Assembly (NCBI GenBank): GCA_903952205.1
Contig: CAJBEZ010000009.1
Location: 1-64,000 of the forward strand
Source of the DNA: an uncultured Desulfomonile sp.
GTDB taxonomy: Bacteria > Desulfobacterota > Desulfomonilia > Desulfomonilales > Desulfomonilaceae
DNA: 64,000 nt
Direction: 5' to 3'
The number at the start of each line of letters is the position of its first letter. Within the stretch, counting starts at the first letter, position 1. Below are positions 1-55,753 of the stretch, piece after piece. Under the pieces are notes generated by a model. It was not told where the DNA came from and did not search any database. It was given only the letters and a program-made list of their open reading frames with translations. The translations under genes were made by a program, and so were the position numbers.

Positions 1-356
1 CGGTCTTTCCTGGCATGCTTTGCGGCGGTTTCGGGAAAGTTGGTCAATTCCAGTACCTGGACACCTTTGGGAAGACGAAACATCTGCTGCAACCCAAAGG
101 GCAGTATAAAAGTCAAACCCGCATCATAAACTTCTTTATGAACGCCGGTGTTTATGCCGACTCTAACCACCTTAATTCCGTATTCATTGGGCCTCACGTA
201 AACGAAAAAAAGATTATAGAAGATAATAACCAGCACTGACACAGCAAGCAATAATTTCAATGGCGTCCCCAGTCTGAAACTAATCGGCGGGAGCCTGAAG
301 CGCTCCTTCAATTTATCTACGAATCGCAGTTCCGGACGCATTGGGTAGTTATCCAT
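1..356 (-). CDS. SPFH/band-7 (prohibitin-like) membrane protein, 5' part only
   Basis: The reading frame is open from an ATG at 356 down to the window edge, so only about 118 N-terminal residues are present. After a polar N-terminus of some 30 residues comes one hydrophobic segment (about residues 36-55), followed by VRPNEYGIKVVR and DAGLTFILPF. That order, a membrane anchor and then a beta-rich start with NEYG and a 'G-hxhxxPF' turn, is typical of SPFH/band-7 proteins, which form membrane-anchored oligomeric rings and often regulate membrane proteases. The specific subgroup cannot be told from this fragment. Transcription points leftward, so any partners lie outside the window. Confidence 0.75.
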   Translation of the reverse strand, partial: MDNYPMRPELRFVDKLKERFRLPPISFRLGTPLKLLLAVSVLVIIFYNLFFVYVRPNEYGIKVVRVGINTGVHKEVYDAGLTFILPFGLQQMFRLPKGVQVLELTNFPETAAKHARKD

Positions 357-982
357 GGTTTCAGTTTCCTTCCAAAGCTTTTCACCATCCGCGGCGAAGT
401 CTACATATCTGTTGTTGCTTTCCCCGACACTCCCAACGACAATATACCTTTATCCGATTTGTTAACAGGGAGTTGAGCAAATAGAATACAAAGACATACC
501 GGTGTCGTGAGGCTATGTTGCTGCGTGAATATGGGGCACCAATAAATATCGTGCTCTTACAATCCACCAGTGATGATTATAGCAGCCTTTCCCTTGATTT
601 GGTGTAGGTGGACATGCCGGATTCTTCAGATCAATCTTTGCCGGTTTATTCAGACTGTATAAGCTCGACAGACGAGCGTCAACCAGGCTACCTGATACCG
701 GGGCATCCCTGATTTTGGACACGGAATGTCTAACTGCCTGTAATGTGAATCCTGTATTTGGTGAGCATCTGCAATAGCCGTGCGCGGCGAAAAACCAAGC
801 GACGGGCAGCGGTGAACGCCTGAACGTTAAGAGGGTGACTCGATCACAGGGACTTCATGAATTCTAGAAAAAATAGTCCCCAACAAAAAAATATCCAACA
901 TATGTCCTCGTTTGACACACATCACAATTATCATTCGGGAAGGCTACCTTTGTGAGCCAGGAAGGTATGAAGGGAGGCTTTT
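357..982. other. Gene-free stretch
   Basis: No convincing gene is seen in these 626 bases. Short frames on the minus strand (382-567, 513-722) lack a ribosome binding site, resemble no family and have no coding-like composition. The stretch presumably carries the promoters of the leftward SPFH gene and of the rightward repeat-protein gene. No tRNA-like cloverleaf or clear terminator was recognised. Confidence 0.5.
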
Positions 983-2470: not shown

Positions 2471-3856
2471 TCAGATGTTTGATAATATGGCTGAATCATC
2501 GACAGGACCATCATCTCGGGAAGAATATGGCCTGAAAGTGGAATACTTCGCGTCAAAGAAGGCTGTGATCATCCCTATAGGGCCATTACGCTGCTTGCCG
2601 ATGATGATTTCAGCCTCACCTTTTTTGGGATTGTCCTCACTCTTGTTATAAACTTCGTCCCTGTAAATGAAAATGATTACGTCGGCATCCTGTTCAATAG
2701 CGCCGGATTCTCTCAAGTCCGCGAGCTGGGGGCGCTTGTTGGGACGTTCTTCAACCTTTCTGTTCAACTGTGACAGGGCAATGACCGGAATATTGAGTTC
2801 TTTAGCCAAGGCCTTTAAAGACCTGGAGATTTCCGATATCTCCTTCTCTCTGGAATCACCCCTCCCCGGCCCCTTCATAAGTTGTAGATAGTCGACAACA
2901 ATTAACCCGAGATCCGTTTCCTTTTTAAGCCGTCTGGCCTTGGCCCGAATTTCCAGTGTGCTTATCGCCGGCGTGTCATCCACATATAAAGGGGAATCCG
3001 AGATGTTTCCCACCGCCAGAGTCAATCTTCCCCAGTCCTCTGGAGTCAGATAACCGGTCCTGAGACTTTTTAGATTTACCTTGGCTTTTGCGCAAAGTAT
3101 TCTGAGAGCGATCTGCTCCTTGCTCATTTCGAGGGAAAAAATTGCTGTCGGGCGCCCATATTCGGTCGCTGCGTTCATCCCCACATTCAGGGCAAAGGAA
3201 GTCTTCCCCATTGATGGCCGTCCAGCCACAATAATGAGGTCCGAGTTCTGGAAGCCGGCGGTCATAGCGTCTAAGTCCTTAAAACCTGACGCCACCCCTG
3301 TTATGTTTTCTTTTCGCTCATACAGTCTCTCAATTGTCTCGAAGCTGCTTTTCATGAGTTCCGAGATGTGGCTGAAAGCCGTACCAATGCGAGACTCGCC
3401 CACTTTGAAAAGGATCTGCTCCGCTTCGTCCAGAAATTCTCCCACGTCCTGCTGGTCTTCGTAGCACCGCGTGGATATTTCGGTTGCGGCCGATATCAAC
3501 TGTCTCAGAATCGCCTTTTCTTTGACTACCTTTGTGTAATGAAGAATGTTTGCAGCGCTTGGCACGGCATCGATCAGCTCCATCAGGAAAACGGCTCCGC
3601 CGACGTTTTCAAAAACGCCTTTTTCCTTCAGCCCCGAGGTCAGAGTAATAAGATCAACAGGTTCGTTCTTGTTGAAGAGATCAAAAATAGCTCTAAAAAT
3701 GTTTCGGTGAGCTTCCCGGTAGAAATCATCCGAGGTGAGTATAGCAAGGACTTTGGGGAGAGCTTCGTTATCGATGAGGAGCCCCCCCAGTATGGCTCGT
3801 TCGCCTTCAAGGAACTGGGGGGGGATCCTAATTTGCGCGTTACTGTCCTGCGCCAT
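2471..3856 (-). CDS. dnaB: Replicative DNA helicase DnaB
   Basis: DnaB is the hexameric 5'-3' helicase that unwinds DNA at the replication fork and binds primase through its N-terminal domain. The 461-residue length is normal. The N-terminal domain covers roughly residues 12-110. The RecA-like motor has Walker A (GRPSMGKTS, about residues 212-220), a SLEMSKEQ motif, Walker B (IVVDYLQLM) and the LSQLNR...DLRESGAIEQDAD region. No intein or insertion is present. Its first codons overlap the end of rplI by 17 bases, so it is the last gene of the rpsF-rpsR-rplI-dnaB operon and is probably translationally coupled, a common order in many bacteria. Confidence 0.97.
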   Translation of the reverse strand: MAQDSNAQIRIPPQFLEGERAILGGLLIDNEALPKVLAILTSDDFYREAHRNIFRAIFDLFNKNEPVDLITLTSGLKEKGVFENVGGAVFLMELIDAVPSAANILHYTKVVKEKAILRQLISAATEISTRCYEDQQDVGEFLDEAEQILFKVGESRIGTAFSHISELMKSSFETIERLYERKENITGVASGFKDLDAMTAGFQNSDLIIVAGRPSMGKTSFALNVGMNAATEYGRPTAIFSLEMSKEQIALRILCAKAKVNLKSLRTGYLTPEDWGRLTLAVGNISDSPLYVDDTPAISTLEIRAKARRLKKETDLGLIVVDYLQLMKGPGRGDSREKEISEISRSLKALAKELNIPVIALSQLNRKVEERPNKRPQLADLRESGAIEQDADVIIFIYRDEVYNKSEDNPKKGEAEIIIGKQRNGPIGMITAFFDAKYSTFRPYSSRDDGPVDDSAILSNI

Positions 3857-4313
3857 CCTTCGACGATACCTCCGGGTCCACTACAATCTTAATTGTAGCA
3901 GTCACTTCGGGATGGACTTTTATGGTCGCTTTGTATTCCCCAAGACGCTTGATTGGCTCAGAGAGCGACACTTTTCTCCGATCAAACTCGTATCCCTTGG
4001 ACGCAAGGGCTTCCGCAACGTCCGCGTTGGTTACTGAACCAAACAAACGAGCGTCCTGATCCCTCGACTTTCTGACAAAAATCAACTCAACCGAAGAAAG
4101 TTCACTCGCCTGAATCTCCGCGGCGCCTCTGGCTTTTGCGAGTTTCCTCTGTTTGGCTTCAATCAGTCCCTTGTAAAAGTTCAGATTTTTCTGAGTAGCC
4201 AGGCAAGCCAGTTTACGCGGCAACAGGTAATTCCTGGCATAACCGTTTTTCACTTTCACGGTCTGACCCACAAGGCCCAATTCTTCAATATGATCAAGTA
4301 ATATGACATCCAT
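3840..4313 (-). CDS. rplI: 50S ribosomal protein L9
   Basis: L9 binds 23S rRNA near the L1 stalk and helps keep the reading frame. The N-terminal domain begins MDVILLDHIEELG and has the family signature GYARNYLLPRKLA. A long central helix (residues about 40-75) and a C-terminal domain rich in SV and LG motifs follow. The frame extends upstream to a GTG at 4322, but the ATG at 4313 is preceded by GGAG at an ideal distance and gives the standard N-terminus, so 157 residues are expected. It lies 22 bases downstream of rpsR and overlaps dnaB. Confidence 0.95.
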   Translation of the reverse strand: MDVILLDHIEELGLVGQTVKVKNGYARNYLLPRKLACLATQKNLNFYKGLIEAKQRKLAKARGAAEIQASELSSVELIFVRKSRDQDARLFGSVTNADVAEALASKGYEFDRRKVSLSEPIKRLGEYKATIKVHPEVTATIKIVVDPEVSSKDGAGQ

Positions 4314-39491: not shown

Positions 39492-40697
39492 ATGAATGAC
39501 ATCCTCGAAAACAAAATAAGAGAGATCGGACGCGAAAAATATTCGCTTATGGGACATGAAGTTCCCTCCCTGTTTGACAGAAAAAGCTGGAATGGTAGGC
39601 TGACCGAGTGGGTTATGAAGGATGAGCCCCTCAAGGTCCGACTCTTCCGGTTTGTTGATGTCCTCCCCTGCCTAAAAACTGATTCCATGGTCACAAAAGT
39701 GCTCAATGAATATTTCTCGGACCTTTCGGAAAATCCCTTCATTAAGGGAATAGGAGCTGTTTCTGGACTGGCTCCATTCCTCGCCGCAAGAGCGGTGCGT
39801 ACAGGTGTCCAATCCATGGCGGCGCAATTTGTCGCGGGACGCGATGAATATGACGCCATGAAGGTATTCCTGAAACTCCGGAAGCAGGCTATAGCATTCA
39901 GCGCTGAACTTTTAGGTGAAGTCGTACTCAGTGACAAAGAAGCTTCAGAGTATGCCGAACGATATAAAAAACTGATTTCTTGCTTGAGCGAAGAAACGTC
40001 AAACTGGCATGAGGACCCTACTCTGGATTTTGACACTCATGGTCCCATACCTATGTTTGACGTGTCGTTGAAGATTTCTTCTTTCTGTCCGCATATTGAT
40101 CCGATGGACTGGGAAGATTCGATTGAAAATGCCATAGCCGGCCTTTCTTCGGTAGTCATTATGGCAACCAAACTCGGCGGATCCATTACGCTGGACATAG
40201 ATGAAGGCGCAGTTCACAAGATCCAAGTCTACATCGAGTTGGGCAAAAATGAGGCCAAAACCCTGTTAGTAAGAAATGTTGACCTTGGCGATGGTCACTT
40301 CGTGGGACCGGTGATATTTACGGAGGTTGAACCCGATTCGAGGCTTGCCCAAGAGGAGATATTTGGACCGGTCCTAGTCGTCATGAGAACACCGAACCTG
40401 GACGGTGCGCTGGAAATAGCGAATGATACACCCTATGCGCTTACAGGCGGAATGTTTTCAAGGAGCCCAGCGAATATTGAGAAGGCTAAGGATAATTTCA
40501 GGGTCGGCAACCTATACATAAATCGGAAGATAACAGGTACGCTGGTAGGGCGGCAACCCTTCGGCGGCTTCGGAATGTCCGGAATAGGCTACAAAGCCGG
40601 TGGTCCCGATTACCTGCCTCAATTCATGAATGCCAAGAGCGTCAGTGAAAATACTCTAAGGCGAGGCTTTGCCCCCAGCGGGCCTGAAGATAATTAA
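39492..40697 (+). pseudogene. putA: PutA (proline dehydrogenase/P5C dehydrogenase) with large in-frame internal deletion
   Basis: Residues 1-about 238 match the start of a PutA-type proline dehydrogenase, including MKDEPLKVRLFRFVDVLPCL and the first barrel strands VSLKISSF and SITLDIDE. From about residue 243 the sequence is the C-terminal end of the aldehyde dehydrogenase half: KIQVYIELGKNEAKTLLV, QEEIFGPVLVVMR, NDTPYALTGG and GRQPFGGFGMSGIG. Normal PutA is near 1000 residues, so some 600 are missing. Lost are most of the FAD barrel and the NAD site and catalytic Cys/Glu of the dehydrogenase. The frame is intact across the junction (near 40205-40225). The product should be inactive, unless this is an assembly error. 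Confidence 0.85.
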
Positions 40698-40732: not shown

Positions 40733-41422
40733 ATGACCAACGAAAGAAAAACAGTCGCTCCGGAATGCGCCACTTGCCCGAACCAGATGCCGGACATGGC
40801 GTGCATGCGTGAAGGCGGTTCAACTCATAAAGGCTGTCCCACCGTAAGCTGCAAAGAGCTACTGGCAAAGGCCAACCGGCAGTATGCAGACCCTGAAATT
40901 GGTAATTTTGCGCATAATGCGTCTGTGCAGGAATCCGCATGCTATGCGAACAGGCAGGAAAGCCCGTATGTCATGCAACCCACCAAGACACGGATAACCG
41001 AGATCTGCGAATTTGCCAAACGCATGGGGTACAAGCGGATTGGTCTTGTTTTCTGTGTCGGCCTGAAAAATGAGGCTGCCATTGTGGACCGGATATTGAG
41101 GAAAAATGATTTTGATGTGGTTTCAGTTTGTTGCAAAGCCGGCAAGACCTCAAAAGACCTTATCGGTATAGAGGACAAAGACAAGATCTTTCAGGGAACT
41201 GATGAAGCGATGTGCAACCCAGTTTTCCAGGCCATGGCGCTTAACGAGGAAAAGACCGATTTTAACGTGCTGCTCGGGCTATGTGTGGGGCATGATTCCT
41301 TATTTTTTAAACATGCGGAGGCATACACCACTGTCCTGGCGGTTAAGGACCGTGTAACGGGCCACAACCCATTGGCCCCGATTTATCTACATGGTTCGTA
41401 TTACAGGAAACTGCTCTCCTAA
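40733..41422 (+). CDS. DUF1847 cysteine-rich protein
   Basis: The 229-residue protein matches the DUF1847 family, whose biochemical role is unknown. The N-terminus has CATCPNQMPDMACMREGG and GCPTVSC, a likely metal or cluster site. A Rossmann-like core then contains MGYKRIGLVFCVGL, FDVVSVCCKAGK, EAMCNPVFQA and LLGLCVGHDSLFFKH, ending with LAVKDRVTGHNPLAPIY, as in the family. A GGAGG-like site precedes the ATG. It lies 35 bases after the PutA remnant and may share its transcript. Confidence 0.82.
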   Translation: MTNERKTVAPECATCPNQMPDMACMREGGSTHKGCPTVSCKELLAKANRQYADPEIGNFAHNASVQESACYANRQESPYVMQPTKTRITEICEFAKRMGYKRIGLVFCVGLKNEAAIVDRILRKNDFDVVSVCCKAGKTSKDLIGIEDKDKIFQGTDEAMCNPVFQAMALNEEKTDFNVLLGLCVGHDSLFFKHAEAYTTVLAVKDRVTGHNPLAPIYLHGSYYRKLLS

Positions 41423-41570: not shown

Positions 41571-42017
41571 CTAGAAGCAGCGATTGGTGTCAACGTCTTC
41601 ATTTGCCAGAGCCGCCAAGATGTCCCCATGACAGGGCTTAGGATAACACCAGCACACCAACAGTTTCCCCCGCAACTCAGGTATCCTGTCCATTAGGGCT
41701 TTATCCAACAATAGATACTGACGGTAACTAGCCATAATCTCTTCATCCTGTCCGGATTTAAACGGGTTATGCCAGATTGACCTGTCTTCCTTTGCATGAT
41801 GATTCTCGCGGCCGATGTAGAGATAAAGGTTTTGAGATCGAGCCCACGCCACTAGTTCCTTGTCCGTTTTCCAATTAGCCACCACCGCCAGCCCAGATTC
41901 GAGTCGATCCCGGCGGTTGTCAAAATGGATCAGGCGCATATTCAACAGCCTGAAAGTTGGAGAGGAGCTGGTCGCTTCGCCGACTGAAGAAACATATTCC
42001 GGATTTATTTTTCTCAT
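41571..42017 (-). CDS. DUF4326 protein fused behind a hotdog-thioesterase N-terminus
   Basis: Residues from about 46 on match DUF4326: VVANWKTDKELVAWARSQ, LYIGREN, HNPF, MASYRQYLLL and the signature CWCYPKPCHGDILA. Its role is unknown. Residues 1-45 (MRKINPEYVSSVGEAT, FRLLNMRLIHFD) do not belong to that family. They match the start of the thioesterase encoded at 55289 (MLKVNPEYMSKIMEAT, FRLQNMRLLNFD). The gene is thus a chimera in which the 5' end of a thioesterase gene, perhaps with its promoter, was joined in frame to a DUF4326 gene. Whether the protein works is unknown. Confidence 0.75.
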   Translation of the reverse strand: MRKINPEYVSSVGEATSSSPTFRLLNMRLIHFDNRRDRLESGLAVVANWKTDKELVAWARSQNLYLYIGRENHHAKEDRSIWHNPFKSGQDEEIMASYRQYLLLDKALMDRIPELRGKLLVCWCYPKPCHGDILAALANEDVDTNRCF

Positions 42018-42167
42018 CGTTTCGCCCTTGCGCTGATTGATAGAGTTCCTTCTGTCTCTTTACACTAATACGATCAATGTGTAAAACTGCTGCATAATTC
42101 CGGATTATAGTAGCCGTATTTAATAATATAGGAGATTTGCTGTTCATCAATACGCCAAAGGGCAACT

Positions 42168-42635
42168 ATGAACGAACAAGGGATATCCAAAGAGCGAGAA
42201 AGTTTTCTTAAACAGGATTTTGACCGTGGTTTCATCAATTTCTGCGGTTTTAAGGCTGAACTTGCGCAATGGGGCCGGTTTCACTCCCGGCTGGAAATTG
42301 ACTACAATCATCGCCAGCAAGACGGGTTTATCCATGCAGGCGTTATGGCTACAATGGCAGACCACACGGCGGGTTATTCGGCATTTACCACAGTAACCGA
42401 GGACATGCAGATTCTAACAATAGAGTTTAAGATTAATTTCCTTCGTCCGGCATTCGGCCAACTTCTAGTTTGCAGATCACATGTCATCAGGGACGGTCGT
42501 CAAATAATTGTTTCAGAGTCCGAAGTCTTTGATGTCGGTGACCAAGGGAAAGAAACGGCTGTGGCAAAGGCTATAGTTACCCTGATGGCAGTGTCTCGAT
42601 CCAAGCTTTTGAAAGGGCCCTTGAATTCCGAATAA
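42168..42635 (+). CDS. PaaI-type hotdog thioesterase
   Basis: The 155-residue protein has the hotdog helix segment GFIHAGVMATMADHTAGYSAF with the catalytic Asp region, then strands LTIEFKINFLRPA and VCRSHVIRDGRQIIVSESEV. Such enzymes hydrolyse acyl- or aryl-CoA. It is divergent from the DUF4326 chimera. It is complete and differs from the thioesterase at 55289, so it is not the missing part of the chimera. Confidence 0.85.
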   Translation: MNEQGISKERESFLKQDFDRGFINFCGFKAELAQWGRFHSRLEIDYNHRQQDGFIHAGVMATMADHTAGYSAFTTVTEDMQILTIEFKINFLRPAFGQLLVCRSHVIRDGRQIIVSESEVFDVGDQGKETAVAKAIVTLMAVSRSKLLKGPLNSE

Positions 42636-42746: not shown

Positions 42747-44699
42747 TCAGTTATCGGTCGTGTCAGCATCCGTATCCGCTGGAGCGTCATCCAGCATGAG
42801 CACCGATCTGGCCTCTCCTATAGGTAGTTCCTGAACGTCTTTAAGTTTCCTACCGATTACCCTAGTGCGTGTCTGCGCTTTTTCGATCTGTTTGGAGGCG
42901 CTTTCCAGCTTATCTTTGACCTTGTCGAGGATTCCTCCATATTGGGCCCACTCTGTCTTGATGGCCGACAACAAATTCCATACTTCGCTGGACCGCTTTT
43001 GAATGGCCAGTGTCCGGAAACCCATCTGGAGGCTGTTCAGTAGGGACCATAAGGTCGTCGGCCCTGCAATCAAAACCCTGTATTCCCGCTGTATGTATTC
43101 GGCTAAACCGTCTCGCCTGATCACTTCAGCGAACAATCCCTCGGTAGGCAGGAATAAGATGCCAAAGTCAGTTGTCTTTGGTGGGTTCAAATACTTGCGG
43201 GAGATGTCGTTGGCGCACTGTTTTATACGGATCTCCAACTGTTTCGCCGCAGATTCCGACGCTGAGGCGTCCGCGTTCTCCTGGGCCTCGATAAGCCGCT
43301 GATAGTCCTCAACAGGGAACTTTGCGTCAATAGGCAACCAAACAACGTCGCTAAGATCTTCATTTCTCCCCGGAAGCTTGATGGCGAATTCCACTCTCTC
43401 ACCGCCGTCTTTGGTCCCAACATTCTTGGCGTACTGATCAGGCGCCAGGACCTGTTCCAGCAGCACCCCAAGCTGGACTTCACCCCAGGTGCCTCGCGTC
43501 TTTATGTTCGTAAGAACTTTCTTTAGGTCTCCCACACCGGTGGCAAGAAGCTGCATCTCTCCAAGCCCTTTGTGGACTTGCTCCAGCCGTTCACTGACTT
43601 GCTTGAACGACTCGCCGAGCCTCTTTTCCAGCGTCCCTTGAAGTTTTTCATCTACAGTCGCCCGCATCTGATCGAGTTGTTTGTTGTTATCCTGCTGTAT
43701 AGATTGAAGTTTGTCCTGCACCGCAACCTTTAGTTCGTCGAGCTTCTTCTGGTTCGATTCCGTCAGACCTATCAACTGCCTTGAGAACAAATCCATCTGC
43801 TTCTGTTGCGAATCCGCCATGCCGGTCATTCCCTTGAGCATCGAATCATTGAGGTCCTTCAGGGATCCGCCAACATCTTCACGCATAGCCTTGGCGGCAG
43901 TTGTATTTTCGGTCTGGATCTGCTTCAAACGCTCGTCTATGGCATTCCTCTGGGCCTCCAGTTTGGCTTCTGTGGCATTGGTAAGTTTCGCAAGCTGATC
44001 CAGGACATCGCTAAGCTGATTACGCTGATTCAATCCTATATCGTTGAGTGTCCTCACTAACATCTCACTGAAATCCTTAAGGGCGGCGCCAACTTCCTCA
44101 CGGGTTTTCTGAGACGCGTTGGCAAATTCTTCACGCATTTGGTCGAGTTTCTTGCCGCTATTGTCCTGCATCGATGTAAGCCTAACTTCGATCGTTTCAC
44201 GCATGACGGCAAGTTTTTCATCATTTGTCTGGGTGAGCTTGTCGAGTCGATCTGAAAAAACATCCAGGTATGATTTTTGGGAGTTTGCCATTTGCGCCAT
44301 GTTCATTACGAGTGAATCGTTAAATCCCTTGAGCGTGGTTCCGGTCTCTTCGCGCAAACTCTTGGCGCTTGCTATCAAATCCTGACGCACCTGATCCAGT
44401 TTATCCTCGGTAGTCTTTGTAAGGTCCACCATTTGTCTGTAAATAGTGTCGGTATTGCTTTTCAGCGTTCCAGCAAGCTCTTGCCGCGATTGCCTCAACA
44501 GGTTGGCCAATTCTTCGCGATTGTGCGTAATCTCCTCCCTAACCGCCCGTTCCACTCTTTCGTAAGATTTTTCAATGGATTGCAAGGCCTGTTCAACCGG
44601 ACCAAGGTCGATGGGCGCTTTACGAAAAAGCTGGACGATCTGAATGATGATTGTCACTCCTAATAACGCTATGACAACGAAAAGTGTGAGATTCTCCAT
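42747..44699 (-). CDS. rmuC: RmuC-family DNA recombination protein with triplicated coiled coil
   Basis: RmuC proteins limit recombination at inverted repeats and carry a nuclease-like C-terminal domain. An N-terminal helix (LTLFVVIALLGVTIIIQIVQ) anchors it. Residues about 30-400 are coiled coil. The C-terminal domain has TRGTWGEVQLGVLLEQVL, LPIDAKFPVEDYQRL, KYLNPPKTTDFGILFLPTEG and LIAGPTTLWSLLNSLQMGFR, all RmuC signatures. At 650 residues it is longer than usual (about 450) because of three similar coiled-coil units. It is convergent with the thioesterase gene. Confidence 0.93.
   Translation of the reverse strand: MENLTLFVVIALLGVTIIIQIVQLFRKAPIDLGPVEQALQSIEKSYERVERAVREEITHNREELANLLRQSRQELAGTLKSNTDTIYRQMVDLTKTTEDKLDQVRQDLIASAKSLREETGTTLKGFNDSLVMNMAQMANSQKSYLDVFSDRLDKLTQTNDEKLAVMRETIEVRLTSMQDNSGKKLDQMREEFANASQKTREEVGAALKDFSEMLVRTLNDIGLNQRNQLSDVLDQLAKLTNATEAKLEAQRNAIDERLKQIQTENTTAAKAMREDVGGSLKDLNDSMLKGMTGMADSQQKQMDLFSRQLIGLTESNQKKLDELKVAVQDKLQSIQQDNNKQLDQMRATVDEKLQGTLEKRLGESFKQVSERLEQVHKGLGEMQLLATGVGDLKKVLTNIKTRGTWGEVQLGVLLEQVLAPDQYAKNVGTKDGGERVEFAIKLPGRNEDLSDVVWLPIDAKFPVEDYQRLIEAQENADASASESAAKQLEIRIKQCANDISRKYLNPPKTTDFGILFLPTEGLFAEVIRRDGLAEYIQREYRVLIAGPTTLWSLLNSLQMGFRTLAIQKRSSEVWNLLSAIKTEWAQYGGILDKVKDKLESASKQIEKAQTRTRVIGRKLKDVQELPIGEARSVLMLDDAPADTDADTTDN
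43695..44354 (-). repeat. Three coiled-coil repeats inside RmuC
   Basis: Units start near residues 116, 200 and 273 with REETGTTLKGFNDSL, REEVGAALKDFSEML and REDVGGSLKDLNDSM. Each continues with an N-Q/S-Q, a LDKLT / LAKLT / LIGLT segment and an RL-SMQ / RLKQIQ / KLQSIQ end. Unit length is 73-84 residues. Confidence 0.7.
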
Positions 44700-55194: not shown

Positions 55195-55288
55195 TGTGTG
55201 GATAAAATTCCCGGTGTGTTTTTAGAATGAAATTCAACAACATTCCATTCACAAGAAACGAATGGTGAATTCTGAGAAGGCAATATCA

Positions 55289-55753
55289 ATGTTGAAGGTT
55301 AATCCTGAATACATGAGTAAAATAATGGAGGCTACGAATAATTGTCCATATTTCAGGCTTCAGAACATGCGTCTCCTTAATTTTGACGCTGGAATCTCCA
55401 AACTTGAGATCGATATCGACCCTGGCAAACATTATCAGCCCTTCGGCATAACGCATGGCGGCGTAGTTTGTTCAATTATAGACGCCGCTGCGTTCTGGGC
55501 GGTATACGGTCAGGCCCCGGAGAATGTAGGGATGACATCGGTAGATCTCAAGTTGAACTATCTCGCTCCCGCCAGTGGAACCAAACTGGTCGCTCAGGGG
55601 AAGATGGTCAAACTCGGAAGAACACTCGGGTATGGCCAGGCGGAAGTCCTTGACGAAAATGGGAAAATCCTGGCTGCAGGGGCATCCACGTTGATGGTAA
55701 TCCCCGAACTTCCTTTCAAATATGCTGGACAGTTGCCTCCAAAGTTCCTATAA
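55289..55753 (+). CDS. PaaI-type hotdog thioesterase
   Basis: The protein of about 154 residues has GITHGGVVCSIIDAAAFWAV with the family HGG and Asp, then SVDLKLNYLAPA and LVAQGKMVKLGRTLGYGQAEV. It hydrolyses short or aryl acyl-CoA esters. An upstream ATG at 55262 is possible, but the ATG at 55289 has GAGAAGG eight bases upstream and gives the same start as the homologous piece in the DUF4326 chimera. It likely ends the liv operon and may reverse CoA trapping by the operon's acyl-CoA synthetase. Confidence 0.87.
   Translation: MLKVNPEYMSKIMEATNNCPYFRLQNMRLLNFDAGISKLEIDIDPGKHYQPFGITHGGVVCSIIDAAAFWAVYGQAPENVGMTSVDLKLNYLAPASGTKLVAQGKMVKLGRTLGYGQAEVLDENGKILAAGASTLMVIPELPFKYAGQLPPKFL

Follow-up and report, generated by a model that had tools for sequence, protein, structure and literature searches.

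A composite gene with a thioesterase start and a DUF4326 domain in an uncultured Desulfomonile

Composite genes, also called chimeric or remodelled genes, have been described in prokaryotes and viruses (PMC6769587, PMC4202312). As far as the available text of these papers goes, they bring two unrelated families into one reading frame with one part mobile, as would the gene described here, and in the available text of PMC6769587 they account for 18.57% of over a million genes. DUF4326 (PF14216) has been predicted to be an enzyme of the rhodanese-phosphatase superfamily that works on ADP-ribose (PMC9503650, available portion). A fusion of a thioesterase start to this domain is not mentioned in those portions of the DUF4326 literature that a full-text search returned. 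We analysed a window of 64,000 nucleotides (contig CAJBEZ010000009.1, assembly GCA_903952205.1) in which the original prediction had seen a chimeric gene, a hotdog thioesterase start captured by a DUF4326 gene (Table 1). Below, G000 is this genome, G001-G006 include its genus-mates and G016 is another relative.

The two ancestries are plain at the protein level. The composite protein matches the protein encoded at 55262-55753 at 22 of 40 positions (residues 1-40; BLASTP E 3e-13), and a profile of six thioesterase relatives matches the same residues (E 2.2e-13). A profile of six DUF4326 relatives matches residues 34-141 (E 1e-28; database size set to 1000 for both profiles), and the Pfam DUF4326 match reaches 65.8 bits against a curated cut-off of 25 (E 5.7e-18). 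Given these BLASTP, Pfam and two-profile values, both halves lie far beyond chance, so the in-frame join and the complete DUF4326 domain that had been proposed both hold. The 4HBT domain (PF03061) was not found in the composite protein by Pfam, and thioesterase homology stops at codon 33, without the HGG-containing loop that goes with the domain in 4HBT thioesterases. Codons 1-33 presumably correspond to the helix and first strand of the hotdog N-terminus, and the HGG active-site loop is absent. With partial, non-overlapping homology to two unrelated families, the ORF is, on these comparisons, a real composite gene of a thioesterase 5' end and DUF4326.

Table 1. Features of the composite locus and related genes, in window coordinates.
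Feature	Position	Strand	Remarks
Composite ORF	41571..42017	-	148 aa, ATG start
Leader common to type B thioesterase genes	42018..42042	-	probable ribosome binding site; upstream end uncertain
Thioesterase-derived codons 1-33	41919..42017	-	DNA identity to type B; blastn ends in 4/4
Junction, codon 33/34	41918..41919	-	uncertain by a few bases; blastn ends, profiles, identity step
Long-type DUF4326 N-terminal extension, residues 34-59	41841..41918	-	NRRDRLESGLAVVANWKTDKELVAWA; matches C3 copy, KBS-S-2A, Geminocystis plasmid
DUF4326 domain (PF14216), residues 60-135	41613..41840	-	Pfam profile
Cys/His motif CWCYPKPCH, residues 122-130	41628..41654	-	intact
Hotdog thioesterase of another subfamily, complete, divergent neighbour	42168..42635	+	starts 150 bp from composite
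DUF1847 gene, convergent neighbour	40733..41422	+	Pfam
PutA with in-frame internal deletion	39492..40697	+	401 aa, join near 40200
Intact type A thioesterase paralogue	55289..55753	+	between branched-chain-type ABC ATPase and dnaX-like gene

The two halves meet at a sharply defined position. Blastn matches to G006, G003, G004 and G001 end at 41918, 41918, 41918 and 41920, respectively, and identity to three thioesterase genes of type B (see below) is 7-12 per 12 bases through codon 32, then 5-6 and 2-6. On the DUF4326 side, translated similarity to a second DUF4326 copy of this genome, on contig C3, begins at 41918, the same base where thioesterase identity stops. A stretch similar to residues 34-44 (NRRDRLESGLA) occurs in the C3 copy, in cyanophage KBS-S-2A and on a Geminocystis plasmid; since the DUF4326 match begins at 41918 and the profile at residue 34, these residues are part of the DUF4326 half. 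Residues 34-40 are covered by both profiles, since L-E occurs there in either family by chance or shared convergence, and the position of the join may thus be off by a few bases. The original prediction had taken the first 45 codons as thioesterase-like and put the junction near 41880. The thioesterase match is real but covers only 33 codons; codon 45 marks the beginning of the VVAN strand, and the join lies about 11 codons upstream of it.

We compared the 5' piece with the thioesterases of related genomes. Full-length relatives with at least 61% identity occur in seven of nine genomes (our own and eight relatives, the 55289 copy counted); with a genus-mate thioesterase as query, G002 and G016 gave distant matches only. 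Two kinds exist within the genus. In G000 and G005, type A is flanked by an ABC-transporter ATPase and a dnaX-like gene; type B is present in G003, G004 and G006, adjoining a cupin gene in G003 and G004. In G001 the position of type A is taken by a B-like protein. Of the 99 bases in codons 1-33, 79-81 are identical between the composite and type B, 75 between the composite and G001, and 58-60 between the composite and type A. The paralogue at 55289, with which the start had first been matched, shares 60 of 99 and is thereby ruled out as donor.

Similarity to the type B genes continues upstream of the composite ATG for about 20-25 bp, and the G003 blastn match reaches 42038. Against 2000 mononucleotide shuffles, the fractions for the last 25 leader bp were 0.0045 (G006), 0.01 (G004) and 0.001 (G003), compared with 0.64 (G001), 0.06 (G005) and 0.27 (the 55289 gene); with so short a stretch and so simple a shuffle as control, these statistics are modest. 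For some genomes the test was weaker over longer leaders (0.006-0.025 at 40 bases; 0, 0.02 and 0.04 at 60). About 25 bp of shared leader would likely be enough for a putative ribosome binding site. Because both codons 1-33 and the leader bases resemble type B, and the other genes less, the 5' piece is, as far as sequence resemblance can tell, a relic of a type B gene. A search of G000 with a genus-mate thioesterase found no other type B piece, and the cupin gene that adjoins type B in G003 and G004 was not found in G000 either. The absence of a thioesterase body nearby, part of the original prediction, is thus true of this subfamily; it is not true of hotdog thioesterases in general, as one of another subfamily, with a 70% identical relative in G016, lies beside the composite.

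Measured against type B, the 33 codons have a dN of 0.142-0.174, compared with 0.060-0.081 among type B genes, and for this reason constraint on the piece is probably relaxed. Relaxation is expected under start capture, in which the piece needs only to start translation, although the raised dN would fit a new role as well as a loss of constraint. Elsewhere, a 43-residue fragment of a type B C-terminus (L024, G003:C386:21614-21742; 72% identical) lies in a genome that also has an intact copy, and forms a second relic of this gene family. Six distant thioesterase matches (L027, L030, L036, L037, L038 and L039, in G002, G003, G004 and G006) each carry one in-frame stop.

The DUF4326 half retains the features of its family. 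In an alignment of the composite with 28 distinct viral DUF4326 sequences, Cys 122, 124 and 129 and His 130 are invariant in 29 of 29 rows, forming the C-x-C...CH pattern. The C3 copy (L058:9797-10954) is C-terminal in a protein of 385-391 aa and is without the conserved cysteines (GEHYPKPSH). It lies near an integrase, a primase-like protein, DUF5131 and an ERCC4 nuclease, in what appears from these neighbours to be a prophage-like or integrative element. DUF4326 is scarce among the host's relatives, with 1 genome of 18 in the family and 7 of 395 in the phylum (our own counted in both), and common in phages (363 of 50,697 records), which fits the expectation for a mobile gene. A mobile donor for this half is the natural supposition; no close donor was found, the best viral-contig match being about 53% identical over part of the domain.

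The join appears to be private to this locus. A match spanning both halves was found only there among 60 relatives and among 42 class genomes (a set overlapping the 60 relatives; our own genome counted in each), and none of the 363 phage records or 19 plasmid records covered 80% of the query. The thioesterase N-terminus is absent from all 28 viral rows. One pattern scan of genome contigs gave no relatives among 12 matches; a second gave six among 48, all plain thioesterases, at least five of them on contigs of the same genus-mates and so not independent. For the phylum DUF4326 genes (seven genomes, our own included), the other ORFs inspected were L069 and L072, both from one genome, those at L065-L068 and L070 not being recovered by the pattern used. 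A join that is general to DUF4326 proteins or to thioesterases is ruled out by its occurrence, in the sets searched, at this locus only. Thus, the search proposed earlier, for other proteins with the same join, ended without a match in the genomes, phages and plasmids covered, and this N-terminus is not a general property of DUF4326 proteins. The thioesterase match is not a chance one.

The original prediction had also described the region as rearranged, with a PutA deletion about 1 kb away, and both points were borne out. PutA, 0.9 kb beyond the composite locus, has 401 aa here and 995 in G002: its residues 1-237 align with G002 residues 20-256 and its residues 236-395 with 834-992, an in-frame loss of about 577 residues that takes away the greater part of its catalytic regions and leaves partial Pro_dh and Aldedh matches. 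In the sister genome G005, inspected by eye, only about 30 codons of the PutA start are left, between PGI and DUF1847. The composite lies between RmuC and DUF1847. The pair recurs in G006, where other small genes fill the roughly 830 bp between the two. Next after RmuC in G005 comes a relative of the gene at window 2474-3880; next after DUF1847 in G002 comes a relative of the ORF at window 3-449. Since contents and flanks differ among G000, G002, G005 and G006, the RmuC-DUF1847 spot is variable. At 42750-44699, the gene after RmuC differs among G000, G005 and G006, which suggests a site of gene turnover. The decay of PutA and the fusion are thus separate events in an eroding region. A promoter scan gave three promoter-like sites, no real excess over the 2.0 expected in shuffles, and a terminator scan at the locus led nowhere. 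We found no island-like step in composition, and a repeat search turned up nothing at the junction suggestive of an att site or an insertion sequence.

We favour, with a probability of roughly 0.8, an origin of the composite gene by start capture, the in-frame joining of a type B start to DUF4326 from a mobile element. A second thioesterase gene, of type B, would once have sat in the variable RmuC-DUF1847 spot. Long-type DUF4326 DNA from a phage or integrative element would have been joined in by illegitimate recombination, and the thioesterase body lost from a decaying type B gene. With the join in frame at codon 33/34, DUF4326 would be translated from the thioesterase ATG and leader, the 33-residue piece supplying a start and a short N-terminal tail and no thioesterase activity. 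We infer this order of events, as we do the mobile-element donor and the translation of the composite. The two-sided breakpoint at one base, the identity step and the profiles meeting at residue 34-40 count for start capture; the cupin gene adjoining type B in G003 and G004, missing from G000, counts against it, together with the failure to find a close DUF4326 donor, the raised dN of the 33 codons and the low AlphaFold confidence of the N-terminal residues.

The genome is in 120 contigs and the genus-mates named in the second contig scan are metagenome-assembled genomes, so that two unrelated sequences might have been joined at 41918 in assembly. This is very unlikely, because such an artefact would need both flanks to be right and the join to be in frame on the same strand (one in six by chance). 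Synteny with G005 contigs holds both for the left flank (PGI, DUF1847) and for the right (RmuC with the genes beyond it), and the recurrence of the RmuC-DUF1847 adjacency in G006 indicates that, at the gene level, the assembly on either side of the insert is correct. If the join is real, the ORF might still be a by-product of gene erosion that yields no useful protein. The erosion of PutA in the same lineage, the raised dN of the 33 codons and the lack of an orthologue, among the relatives and class genomes searched, to show conservation make this a possibility to be taken seriously, if an unlikely one; against it, the 115 DUF4326 codons are still open and every residue invariant across the 29 rows is kept, in contrast to the C3 copy and its lost cysteines.

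It is also conceivable that a short mobile DUF4326 is still translated from its own start, the thioesterase codons being incidental: codons 45 and 46 are both GTG, just upstream of VVAN, and in many DUF4326 proteins the start lies a few residues ahead of VVH or VVN. We think this improbable, as long-type homology begins eleven codons earlier, at residue 34, and the ATG at 42017 has the leader common to working thioesterase genes.

We compared the predicted fold of the DUF4326 part with known structures. In the AlphaFold model, the core (residues 61-140) has good confidence and the N-terminal 60 residues low confidence; alignment rows were trimmed before folding, as the untrimmed form set viral VVH strands under thioesterase residues. 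The composite protein had no sequence match among solved structures, and the DUF4326 model had no Foldseek match at E <= 0.001. The best VIA rows were NADAR 8bat (Z 4.4, 104 aligned, rmsd 4.4) and NADAR at Z 3.6, with the DUF442 putative phosphatase 3gxh at Z 2.1, all weak and at best middling on the program's own scale; such comparisons of a model neither support nor exclude the rhodanese-phosphatase-superfamily reading. Following the published prediction, the domain may target phosphates on ADP-ribose-type molecules. A Photobacterium plasmid DUF4326 gene (L145:517-1488) is directly upstream of a Sir2-family gene, and one phage DUF4326 gene adjoins a DprA-like gene, neighbours that would fit the published NAD/ADP-ribose theme. 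A search for defence families found none. More speculatively, and with little probability, a phage-type nucleotide-handling enzyme may have been domesticated under the thioesterase start, perhaps with its promoter, the 33-residue hotdog piece serving as a docking or stabilising element; an anti-conflict or NAD-signalling activity would then be expressed with host metabolism.

Compared with its parents, the composite gene has the full domain, the invariant Cys/His motif and the pre-VVAN extension of long-type, phrog_464-like DUF4326, from which it differs in that the N-terminus is replaced by a thioesterase start. With the type B gene of the genus, a TIGR00369-type 4HBT hotdog thioesterase, it has the leader and first 33 codons in common, and it differs in that the whole catalytic hotdog domain is missing. 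The intact parent is still present in genus-mates, which makes it possible to date and test the join. The composite provides a base-resolved example of how a mobile-element gene may become expressible when its insertion sets it in frame after the start of a host gene that can be spared. Unlike the composites in the available text of PMC6769587 and PMC4202312, one parent here gives 33 codons and no functional domain, making this a start capture and not a two-domain fusion. Within the sets searched the join is peculiar to this locus, but composite genes are already well known as a kind; as an instance of a known route to new genes it is genuine but minor, and it reveals no new system.
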